From Bacteriovorax sp. (GTDB taxonomy: Bacteria; Bdellovibrionota; Bacteriovoracia; Bacteriovoracales; Bacteriovoracaceae), in contig JACMNL010000038.1 in the NCBI GenBank assembly GCA_014378525.1, positions 1 through 64,000 of the forward strand: DNA of 64,000 bases. Reading direction: 5' to 3'. Made by a program: the position numbers and the translations under genes. Positions 959-4,771 of the stretch are shown in pieces (positions within the stretch are counted from its first letter, which is position 1; each line of letters opens with the position of its first letter). The notes beneath the pieces are model-generated. The model did not search any database and was not told the DNA's origin. It saw only the letters and a program-made list of their open reading frames with translations.

Positions 959-1720
959 TCAGGGACTCCAGTCTTTAAGAGAATATTTTGTGATTATCTT
1001 ATCCAGAGTTCCGTCCTTTCTCAAATCTTCTATGCCATCCGCGAGAATTTTGGCAAATTCTTTGGATCGGGGATTCTTTGGAGAGAAACCTATATAGAGG
1101 GGATCACCATTTGTACAACCCGCTTCTTCATACTGATCACGAATTTTTTTTGACTCAGTCGTATAGTTAAAAACAAAAGGGTTTTCAATGATGGTATCGA
1201 TCTTATTTTGTTTCATATTATCGAGATTCATCATGAGGGGTGTCTCACCTTTACTCTTTACAGTCTGATCAGGGTGCTCCAGCAGATAACTCATGAGTTC
1301 AGCCGAGTAAGCGTAACTCTCGACTATACCAAGTTTTCTGTTTTTTAAATTTTCAATTTTCAAAAATTCCCATGGGTCCTTTTTTTTCACATAAAAACAT
1401 TCTTTATTTGAACCCATACTTTTAGTTGGATAAATAAAGTCCGGAGCATCAGGCATGGTTGTCGCTACAATGGCGGTGGCCTTCCCGCTTCTCACGCTCT
1501 CAATAGAGTGTGACCAGGTGTCGACCTGATAATCTATGTTGTGTCCTTTTCTTTCGAAAACAATTTTTGCGACTTCAATAATGTAACCCATTTCTTTTGA
1601 TTGTGAAGAGGTCGGCTCGCAATTGAAGGGGCACCAGCGGTCTGCTTTAAAAATAAGCGTCTCGGCCTTAATAGGTGATGCTAGTGTTAGAATGAATAAT
1701 AAGCTTAGTGATATTTTCAT
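959..1720 (-). CDS. Periplasmic solute-binding protein, family 3-like
   Basis: A 253-residue secreted protein. Residues 1-19 form a clear Sec signal peptide ending in KAE. The rest has the two-lobed layout of amino-acid-type (family 3) solute-binding proteins: an early GYIIEVAKIVFERKG segment, the VRSGKATAIVATTMP strand and loop, and a late LRKDGTLDKIITKY segment that is typical of the family end. No permease or ATPase gene is adjacent, so it may serve an unlinked transporter or act as a sensory ligand binder. The gene begins two bases after the stop of the Lys-rich 95-residue protein and is followed closely by the EVE gene. The substrate is unknown. Confidence 0.8.
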   Translation of the reverse strand: MKISLSLLFILTLASPIKAETLIFKADRWCPFNCEPTSSQSKEMGYIIEVAKIVFERKGHNIDYQVDTWSHSIESVRSGKATAIVATTMPDAPDFIYPTKSMGSNKECFYVKKKDPWEFLKIENLKNRKLGIVESYAYSAELMSYLLEHPDQTVKSKGETPLMMNLDNMKQNKIDTIIENPFVFNYTTESKKIRDQYEEAGCTNGDPLYIGFSPKNPRSKEFAKILADGIEDLRKDGTLDKIITKYSLKDWSP

Positions 1721-2144: not shown

Positions 2145-2534
2145 TTATTTTTTAGGAGCGCAAGTTAAAGGTTGTGCATTTTCAATAACCGCAAGATAAC
2201 TTGGTCCTTTTTTGGCCTGTTTAAAACTTACAGTTTTATCGACATGAATTTTATCTTTTTCTTTTTCAAAATAATAATTACAGTTTTTTAATTTTAGCTG
2301 CCAGATAGCATCCTGAATCATTGCACGTGGATCGGCCTTATGACTTTCCGGAGTATTTTCATAAACACATGTTGCAAATTTTGATTTCTTATTAAATAAA
2401 TCGATTGTAGGTGAATTCGAGTCGAGAATGGAAATCTCAACACGTAAATTTTTATCGACCGGACATGTATAGTTAAATACTTCCTTAGAGAAGGCCGGAC
2501 TAGAGATTATTAAAGTTAAAAGTATATATTTCAT
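2145..2534 (-). CDS. Small secreted hypothetical protein beside PAD
   Basis: A 129-residue protein with a Sec signal peptide (residues 1-16, ISSPAFS then KEVF). The mature part is about 113 residues and has four Cys residues (in YTCP, ATCV, KNCN and LTCAP), enough for two disulfide bonds in the periplasm or outside. I recognise no family. It starts five bases after the stop of the protein-arginine deiminase gene, and an AAGGTAA ribosome binding site overlaps that stop, so the two are co-translated. A role as partner, chaperone or inhibitor of the deiminase is possible but only inferred from this spacing. Confidence 0.7.
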   Translation of the reverse strand: MKYILLTLIISSPAFSKEVFNYTCPVDKNLRVEISILDSNSPTIDLFNKKSKFATCVYENTPESHKADPRAMIQDAIWQLKLKNCNYYFEKEKDKIHVDKTVSFKQAKKGPSYLAVIENAQPLTCAPKK

Positions 2535-2539
2535 TGTTA

Positions 2540-4177
2540 TTACCTTGATTCCGTTTTTGGTTTACAGTATGGAATCGAGTGGCTTGAACAGTGAATATTT
2601 CCATGTCCGATGTGAGCATAATCCCATGTTGGAATAAAATCCGCTTTCATGTTTCTTTTACTCAATTCATCTTTCATATAATTATTAAAAAGTTTATTTC
2701 CTGAATCTGAAAAAGTTAAAGTTTTATTCATTAAGACTGAATTGGTAGGATTGGGTAAAAATGAATCTGTAGTCCCGGGTTGTTGCAATTGTAATGTACC
2801 ATCCGCATTTTTAATGGTTTTTCCACCATAGAATAGATCGGGGACATCTATTTCGTTATAATATTTGATACATTGAGGAAGTCGTGAAAGAATTTTTTCC
2901 TTAATACGTGCTTTATCAGCTTCAATCGACTTGTCGATGGCCATCTGAAGGTCCATAAAATCTTTATCGTCTTTCATTACTTCCTGTATTTCAAAGTTAG
3001 TGACTTTCTCAATATTGTTCGAACAGTTTTCCATTTGCTTATCAAAACTAATTCCTGATTCTACAATTCCTGCTGATGCATCTGTGAAAAATAATTTCAG
3101 GAAAACACTTTTGATTGAATTGGGTAAAGATGGCATATTGGGTTTTTTATTCATCGCTAGCTGCATATATTTACAGATACGTGAGTTTCCGGCAAACTGA
3201 CCCTCGACTCTCATTGCTTTAATTTCATTTAAATCGATGTCAGGATTTTTATTATCAATATCATAAAATGGAATATTTCCAGGTCCTGGAGTGGCCATAA
3301 GAGACAATGCCTTTTTAGGACTAGCGGCCATTAATGAAAACTCGCATTCCTTTGGGCGGCCATCATTAAATTGAGTCGGCATAATTTTAAATAATTCATC
3401 TACGTGACCAACAGAAAGCCATGATGTTTGAAGTGTAATGATATTTTTTTCATCACCACAAAATTGTGTAGTAAATTTTTTACCCTGATTATCACCGGCC
3501 AGGCAAAAACCACCCGGAGCACCTTCAATATTTCCACCCATTTCTCCTGAGCCAAATGAGTTTTCACCTTTTCTATTTTGTTCCAGTGTTGAAAATGGAT
3601 TTTCGTTGTATGCTGGCGTGATAGTATCACCATTTGTAAGTGCACACTGGTTACCACTATTCGCAAGCTGCTGGCCGGCACCGGGACTCACACGTTCGTA
3701 GTAACTTTCAATTTGTCTTACAACAGGAGAGCCGGTTTTTAAATCGACAAAAGATTCAAACCAGTCCTGTTGCCAGGTATAACTTTGAGCAGGGCCAGGT
3801 GTAATCTGTCCGATAATTTTTTCTACATCAGCTTCGGGAATTTTTTTCTGTACAAGGGTGTTTCTGATACTGGCCACAAGTTCTTTAAAGTCTTCAGGAT
3901 TAGACATTGGTAAAATAATTTGCGGTACATTTTTATAATCATAGTTAGAAATAACTTTACTAACAAATTTCTGAGTGACTCCACTGGCCTCTTTACTTGG
4001 AACCATCGGCCGGTTTGAAATAACAAATGCCTGCGTGGGGTAAGTTTCATCTAAAAGAGTTGAGCCACTATCGGGGCAATAAGGAACATTACTTTTGTCG
4101 GGGCATTCGAGTGCTATTGCACTGGTCGACGAGATTGTAAGTAGTAATAGTGAACTATAAAATTTCATTCTTTTCAT
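2540..4177 (-). CDS. Secreted protein-arginine deiminase (animal-type PAD) homologue
   Basis: A 545-residue protein with a Sec signal peptide (about residues 1-22). It matches the C-terminal catalytic domain of peptidyl-arginine deiminases, which turn protein arginine into citrulline. All four catalytic positions can be placed: Asp138 (WQQDWFE), His258 and Asp260 (SWLSVGHVDE, nearly the same as in human PADs), and Cys530 (HGNIHCSSH). Other matching blocks are LMAASP after the His/Asp motif, DVPDLFYGG, and FLPNPTN before the last strands. The N-terminal immunoglobulin-like domains of animal PADs are absent, so the protein is essentially signal peptide plus catalytic domain. The start at 4177 is chosen because TAAAAT lies seven bases upstream; an in-frame TTG two codons earlier is less likely. 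It is co-transcribed with a small secreted protein. Confidence 0.85.
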   Translation of the reverse strand: MKRMKFYSSLLLLTISSTSAIALECPDKSNVPYCPDSGSTLLDETYPTQAFVISNRPMVPSKEASGVTQKFVSKVISNYDYKNVPQIILPMSNPEDFKELVASIRNTLVQKKIPEADVEKIIGQITPGPAQSYTWQQDWFESFVDLKTGSPVVRQIESYYERVSPGAGQQLANSGNQCALTNGDTITPAYNENPFSTLEQNRKGENSFGSGEMGGNIEGAPGGFCLAGDNQGKKFTTQFCGDEKNIITLQTSWLSVGHVDELFKIMPTQFNDGRPKECEFSLMAASPKKALSLMATPGPGNIPFYDIDNKNPDIDLNEIKAMRVEGQFAGNSRICKYMQLAMNKKPNMPSLPNSIKSVFLKLFFTDASAGIVESGISFDKQMENCSNNIEKVTNFEIQEVMKDDKDFMDLQMAIDKSIEADKARIKEKILSRLPQCIKYYNEIDVPDLFYGGKTIKNADGTLQLQQPGTTDSFLPNPTNSVLMNKTLTFSDSGNKLFNNYMKDELSKRNMKADFIPTWDYAHIGHGNIHCSSHSIPYCKPKTESR

Positions 4178-4252: not shown

Positions 4253-4771
4253 TTAGGAAGCAACTCTGGTTGAGTTCGGAAAAAAATTCCACCATTCATT
4301 CGGATCTTCATCAGATAAACGAAGGCAGAGTTCAGGTGACCAGCGTGGTTTTTTAGCGGGTTTCAATAAAATAAGTCCCGATGCTTTTAAACTCTTCGAT
4401 CCTTTTTTACCATTGCACGGCCTGCAGCATGTGACGACATTCTCCCAGCTGGTAGGTCCTTTTTGTGAAACTGGTATGATGTGATCGAAGGTGAGTTCGT
4501 GGGCAGGAAGTTTATCGGCGCAGTACTGGCATTGGAAATTATCGCGGAAAAAAACATTCATTCGGGTAAATTTAACATTGAGAGAGATCTTATGGTTTTG
4601 AAATAACCGGAGGATCTTGGGGAGACGGTACGCCGTGGAAACGGTCCGTATGAGTTTGTCTTCATACTCATCAACAACTTCGGCCCGGCCCGTAAGAAGG
4701 AGTATCATGGCCTTCTGCCAATTTATTATTTTAACCGGAAAATAGTTGCAGTCTAAAAGCAACGTCCTCAT
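4253..4771 (-). CDS. HNH endonuclease family protein
   Basis: A 172-residue protein of the common chromosomal HNH family. The N-terminal half opens MRTLLLDCNYFPVKIINWQKA, typical of the group. The C-terminal half is the HNH nuclease: CxxC at 81-84, the DH pair at 96-97 (FDHIIPVSQKG), Asn111 (WENVVT), and CRPCN at 116-120 for the second half of the zinc site. It would cut DNA, but the biological target of these stand-alone proteins is unknown. The start at 4771 is chosen because TATACT lies eight bases upstream; a GTG six codons earlier overlaps that box. It is a single gene between PAD and the helicase operon. Confidence 0.88.
   Translation of the reverse strand: MRTLLLDCNYFPVKIINWQKAMILLLTGRAEVVDEYEDKLIRTVSTAYRLPKILRLFQNHKISLNVKFTRMNVFFRDNFQCQYCADKLPAHELTFDHIIPVSQKGPTSWENVVTCCRPCNGKKGSKSLKASGLILLKPAKKPRWSPELCLRLSDEDPNEWWNFFPNSTRVAS

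Follow-up and report, generated by a model that had tools for sequence, protein, structure and literature searches.

The window, that is the whole stretch of 64,000 nucleotides of Bacteriovorax sp. DNA that was analysed, carries an open reading frame (ORF) on its minus strand, with an ATG at 4177 and a stop codon at 2542-2540; the plus strand is riddled with stops over this interval. The ORF encodes a member of the protein-arginine deiminase (PAD) family, and next to it lies a gene for a small exported protein, called here the partner. The features of the locus are:

4256..4771, minus strand: HNH endonuclease gene, the conserved upstream flank of an indel site (Pfam, relatives' loci)
2540..4177, minus strand: exported protein-arginine deiminase homologue of the PAD family (PF03068), P0001, 545 aa (ORF, Pfam, profile, alignment)
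4112..4177, minus strand: predicted Sec signal peptide of P0001, MKRMKFYSSLLLLTISSTSAIA (sequence pattern and hydropathy)
3764..3766, minus strand: codon of D138, equivalent to D350 of PAD4 (profile and alignment)
3404..3406, minus strand: codon of H258, equivalent to H471 of PAD4 (profile and alignment)
3398..3400, minus strand: codon of D260, equivalent to D473 of PAD4 (profile and alignment)
2588..2590, minus strand: codon of the nucleophile C530, equivalent to C645 of PAD4 (profile and alignment)
2540..2550, minus strand: the partner's likely ribosome-binding site (AAGG), within the final PAD codons (sequence)
2145..2534, minus strand: exported partner, 129 aa, with signal peptide MKYILLTLIISSPAFS, beginning 5 nt past the PAD stop codon
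1722..2009, minus strand: 95-aa ORF, the conserved downstream flank of the indel site (relatives' loci)

P0001 matches PF03068 at 3.1e-15 (56.5 bits, for a cut-off of 25). Its N-terminus consists of MKRMKFYSSLLLLTISSTSAIA followed by LEC, a sequence pattern with a likely type I cleavage site after A22 and no lipobox, and the motif SWLSVGHVDE occupies residues 252-261. The signal peptide, the assignment to the PAD family, the set D138/H258/D260/C530 and the motif had all been proposed in the original prediction, and all are borne out by the sequence, the PF03068 match and the alignment with PAD4. It had been right, too, that the extra N-terminal domains of animal PADs are missing: PF03068 is the sole Pfam match of P0001, with neither PAD_N nor PAD_M detected by Pfam, and the stretch between the signal peptide and the catalytic domain is, at about 65 aa, too short for PAD_M. 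The enzyme is not of the Porphyromonas type either, as PF04371 matches neither P0001 nor the host genome, and the suspicion of a Bdellovibrio-like host agrees with the closest named relatives, which come from Bdellovibrionota, namely MAGs of a Bacteriovorax sp. and of a Bacteriovoracaceae member, at 78% and 40% identity respectively. The P0001 gene is the sole PF03068 gene found when the host genome was searched with this profile, and contamination is unlikely because the order of genes around the PAD gene is conserved in close relatives. No relatives of P0001 were found in viral contigs, phages or plasmids. A pentein fold is implied by homology, as a prediction from sequence; the AlphaFold model, computed from a 3-sequence alignment (window, L031 and L032), had a pLDDT of 32.7.

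A search of 369 genomes of the phylum with PF03068 gave matches in 61, and a profile built from 49 relatives of P0001 (A1) gave matches in 78. The A1 profile recognizes human PAD4 at 2.5e-33, in an alignment that spans both halves and includes the four catalytic residues, and at E<=0.01 it matched PADs only, without any non-PAD protein. In an alignment of 69 Bdellovibrionota homologues the catalytic residues are kept (D in 69/69, H in 68/69, D in 68/69 and C in 67/69, with one gap), and therefore the match is not due to chance; family identities go down to about 20% with these residues still kept in at least 67/69 sequences. The maximum-likelihood (ML) tree, made from the 69 sequences with PAD4 and a Streptomyces PAD as the sole sequences from other phyla, contains a clade of 38 rows (clade I) that includes P0001, with a median length of 541 aa and mostly type I signal peptides, and a clade of 14 rows whose members measure about 445 aa and bear lipoboxes or N-terminal anchors. 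Two further groups are smaller. One genome (G060) has four PAD genes on separate contigs (L002, L033, L034 and L035), which form a clade of their own together with one relative from G059; the Bdellovibrionota sequences nearest to PAD4 (28-31% identity) belong to this clade. A PAD relative with a lipobox in genome G235 (L054:4754-6262, minus strand) has lost the catalytic H, D and C, showing GMVNE and QSTS instead, and judging from these replacements should be a natural pseudoenzyme.

Nearly all of the 69 PADs begin with a signal peptide or carry a lipoprotein box or a membrane anchor at the N-terminus, export signals being judged here by hydropathy and motif rather than by a dedicated predictor, with a few start sites uncertain. 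The secreted form singled out in the original prediction is thus real in so far as the signal peptide is present, but it is not unusual, the PAD of a Streptomyces plasmid having a signal-like N-terminus as well. Most clade-I PADs have 11 cysteines, i.e. the nucleophile plus ten. C278 and C436 are invariant in the PADs, and the pairs C225/C240 and C335/C385 are each kept or lost jointly, with only 2-3 independent changes. This pattern fits disulfides that would be made outside the cytoplasm, the pairing deduced from joint loss being suggestive only.

The description of P0001 as animal-type is not supported. Within the core, P0001 and PAD4 are 22.6% identical, compared with 27.8% for the Streptomyces PAD and PAD4 and 20.9% for P0001 and the Streptomyces PAD, and a branch of the ML tree with 98/93 support has PAD4 and the Streptomyces PAD on one side and the 69 Bdellovibrionota sequences on the other. 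The clade of animal and late cyanobacterial enzymes is described as having PAD_N, the switch aspartate and calcium sites 2 and 4 as its specific features (PMC8826395). In the proposed check of calcium-site residues, the side-chain ligands of site 1 are present in P0001 (Q137, E141 and E218); the site-2 ligand E351 of PAD4 is replaced in the homologues, mostly by an aromatic residue, which is W139 in P0001. D388 of PAD4 corresponds to Q177, over a stretch where the alignment is uncertain, and the equivalent of R374 is ambiguous (R162 or R154), while that of W347 is W135, found in 67/69 homologues. It is because of these clade marks, and because its identity to PAD4 is lower than that of the Streptomyces PAD, that we do not regard P0001 as animal-type. 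The catalytic set and a GHVDE-type motif also occur in the Streptomyces PAD and in nearly all PF03068 proteins examined, and so they are not markers of the animal type.

Compared with known systems, P0001 shares with the vertebrate PADI (human PAD4) the D/H/D/C set, the GHVDE and HC motifs and the calcium-site-1 side-chain ligands, but it differs in being exported and cysteine-rich, in having a dedicated partner gene, and in lacking PAD_N, PAD_M and E351; in addition, a long region around residues 295-400 has little counterpart in PAD4. The three-domain PADI of Cyanothece sp. 8801, like P0001 a bacterial PF03068 protein, is a proven calcium-dependent PAD (PMC8826395). Its clade is described as having PAD_N, PAD_M and PAD_C with calcium sites 2 and 4, whereas P0001 has no extra domains and, by sequence, no site-2 ligand. 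The PAD encoded by a plasmid of Streptomyces sp. NBC_00984 (L081), of the actinobacterial/fungal two-domain type, resembles P0001 by its PF03068 match, its four catalytic residues and its signal-like N-terminus; unlike in P0001, a long region precedes the catalytic domain and PF03068 is matched over almost the full length (2.4e-69), and no small exported partner gene was found adjoining it. The survey of PADIs counted 69 Proteobacterial species with such genes, and its main text is silent on signal peptides and secretion (PMC8826395). The Porphyromonas enzyme, PPAD, is likewise a secreted bacterial citrullinating enzyme, but of another family (PF04371). Bdellovibrionota used to be classified within Proteobacteria, so the Proteobacterial set of the above survey presumably includes PADs of the Bdellovibrionota type.

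The earlier reading of the locus overlooked the adjoining partner gene. Its likely ribosome-binding site is inside the end of the PAD gene, which suggests coupled translation. The partner family, as seen in 24 aligned proteins with identities as low as 8%, has four invariant cysteines (Cys24, Cys56, Cys85 and Cys125 in the window). The window partner has no Pfam match and other members of the family have only single weak ones; the family profile matched no PDB chain. Modelled with AlphaFold (pLDDT 64.6, for one of five models), the partner had no PDB fold match at E<=0.001, and we take this model as uninformative.

A partner lies beside most clade-I PADs, the arrangement being most often an ATGA overlap. 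When neighbours were scored by a simple rule (an ORF of 110-215 aa with a signal-like N-terminus, starting -8 to +25 nt from the end of the preceding gene), 30/49 PAD genes had one, versus 10/260 control genes (Fisher 2e-20, with rows that are not independent, the genomes being related). Whole genomes searched with the partner profile contained 32 clear matches, spread over 31 genomes. Of these matches, 30 adjoin a PAD, counting one (G102) whose contig accommodates no more than the final 49 residues of the PAD. The two others are orphans with no PAD adjoining (L099:5012-5485 (+) and L097:1083-1586 (+), from genomes G101 and G207), and conversely 7 clade-I PADs have no recognized partner. In G311 the partner is found upstream of the PAD instead, so the pairing has outlived a rearrangement. 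The same search revealed PADs of the Bdellovibrio bacteriovorus HD100 group that had been unseen in the initial PF03068 pass, and the PAD and partner pair is present in genomes matching HD100 and Tiberius (PMC3539863). A second type of exported partner, in which only the two middle cysteines are conserved, was observed beside a separate PAD clade (L073, L021, L017, L010, L080 and L043) and is possibly related to the four-cysteine family. We also considered a depletion of arginine in the partner as protection from citrullination, an idea that fails across the family.

Within the genus, both genes are present in 5 genomes and both are missing from 8, one further genome being cut by a contig end. 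In G005, G007 and G016 the HNH gene and the 95-aa ORF are about 100-150 bp apart, with PAD and partner both absent between them, and in G010, G011 and G015 the PAD is on a different contig from the conserved flanking genes. PAD and partner are present or absent jointly, and therefore the two genes behave as one unit. The interval around the 95-aa ORF is an indel hot spot. A gene for a family-3 solute-binding protein (window 959-1720, minus strand) also varies in presence among genus members, its position being between the 95-aa ORF and the EVE gene; it is absent in L031, G005, G007 and G016.

On this basis we consider it probable that P0001 is an extracytoplasmic protein-arginine deiminase and that a dedicated exported partner controls or assists it. 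P0001 would be an active PAD-type enzyme of a divergent Bdellovibrionota branch, exported by Sec and acquiring its disulfides outside the cytoplasm, and it might act either outside the cell or in the periplasm. By homology, D138 and D260 would hold the arginine residue while C530 attacks its guanidinium carbon and H258 serves as the acid/base; the product would be citrulline, with removal of the positive charge. The partner, presumably coupled to the PAD in translation and with its four invariant cysteines in two probable disulfides, would most likely bind the PAD so as to regulate, fold or position it. Its role is the weakest step of the explanation: an inhibitor or activator comes first, then a chaperone or substrate adaptor. 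A wider proposal is that Bdellovibrio-like bacteria, HD100 included, possess a dedicated extracytoplasmic citrullination system, made of a disulfide-stabilized exported PAD and a four-cysteine partner co-evolving with it, which would act as its inhibitor or activator until prey or the bacterium's own envelope is reached, the two-gene unit having been spread and lost; this we put forward tentatively, as the less likely outcome. Any part played by P0001 in predation is speculation based on the lineage.

Other explanations have to be weighed. The small protein could be an independent co-transcribed neighbour without any action on the PAD, the two genes moving together in a short segment that is mobile or selfish. 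Its fast evolution (identity as low as 8%), the two orphan genes in G101 and G207, and a weak model with no PDB fold match would all suit such a neighbour. We nevertheless find this improbable, because the pairing persists in numerous genera and families across the phylum in which the remaining neighbours vary, and was kept in G311 despite the reversed order; moreover, the four invariant cysteines show selection, and the two-cysteine partner type of a separate PAD clade may be related. Slightly less probable still is an exported deiminase that would serve nutrition by scavenging free arginine, agmatine or short peptides rather than acting on intact proteins. The pentein superfamily includes free-arginine and agmatine deiminases, and the arginine by which PAD4 binds the peptide backbone is not clearly conserved. 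Against this stand the specificity of the A1 profile for PADs, the conservation of the W347 equivalent and the gene content of the host, in which profile searches found no ADI (PF02274) or PPAD (PF04371) gene and one carbamoyltransferase-family gene: there is no obvious route of citrulline catabolism, which argues mildly against a nutritional arginine pathway.

That P0001 is a non-catalytic binding or structural protein retaining the PAD fold seems very unlikely: pseudoenzymes do exist in the family, as exemplified by the G235 protein (L054) without H, D and C, but the four catalytic residues are intact in P0001 and in nearly all its relatives. Hardly credible at all is the idea that P0001 was acquired recently, whether from an animal or from a cyanobacterium of the animal-type clade. 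The near-identity of the SWLSVGHVDE motif could be invoked for it; the core identity to PAD4 of 22.6%, the lost calcium-site-2 ligand, the lack of PAD_N and PAD_M and the grouping of PAD4 with the Streptomyces sequence all speak against it.

If our preferred reading, a PAD working outside the cytoplasm with its own partner, is true, it would provide a system for studying how PAD activity is regulated extracellularly, and for asking if predators alter the charge of proteins in their prey or in their own envelope. PADs have been studied almost only in animals, where calcium is needed, and we know of no dedicated partner gene for animal PADs; the partner family is a candidate natural PAD regulator. 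PADs in bacteria were already known (PMC8826395), but the open literature searched yielded no publication on either PADs or citrullination in Bdellovibrio-like bacteria. What appears to be new is the exported PAD branch taken as a whole, together with the four-cysteine partner family and the joint mobility of PAD and partner. The system would also be at hand in a tractable predator, B. bacteriovorus HD100, for asking what bacterial protein citrullination serves. An absence of PAD from HD100, as the lack of a match in the initial genome search had indicated, was rejected: in the matching genome (L092) the PAD gene is at 1,847,308-1,848,969 on the minus strand, and its protein scores 44 bits against PF03068, above the Pfam cut-off, so that databases can label it as a PAD.
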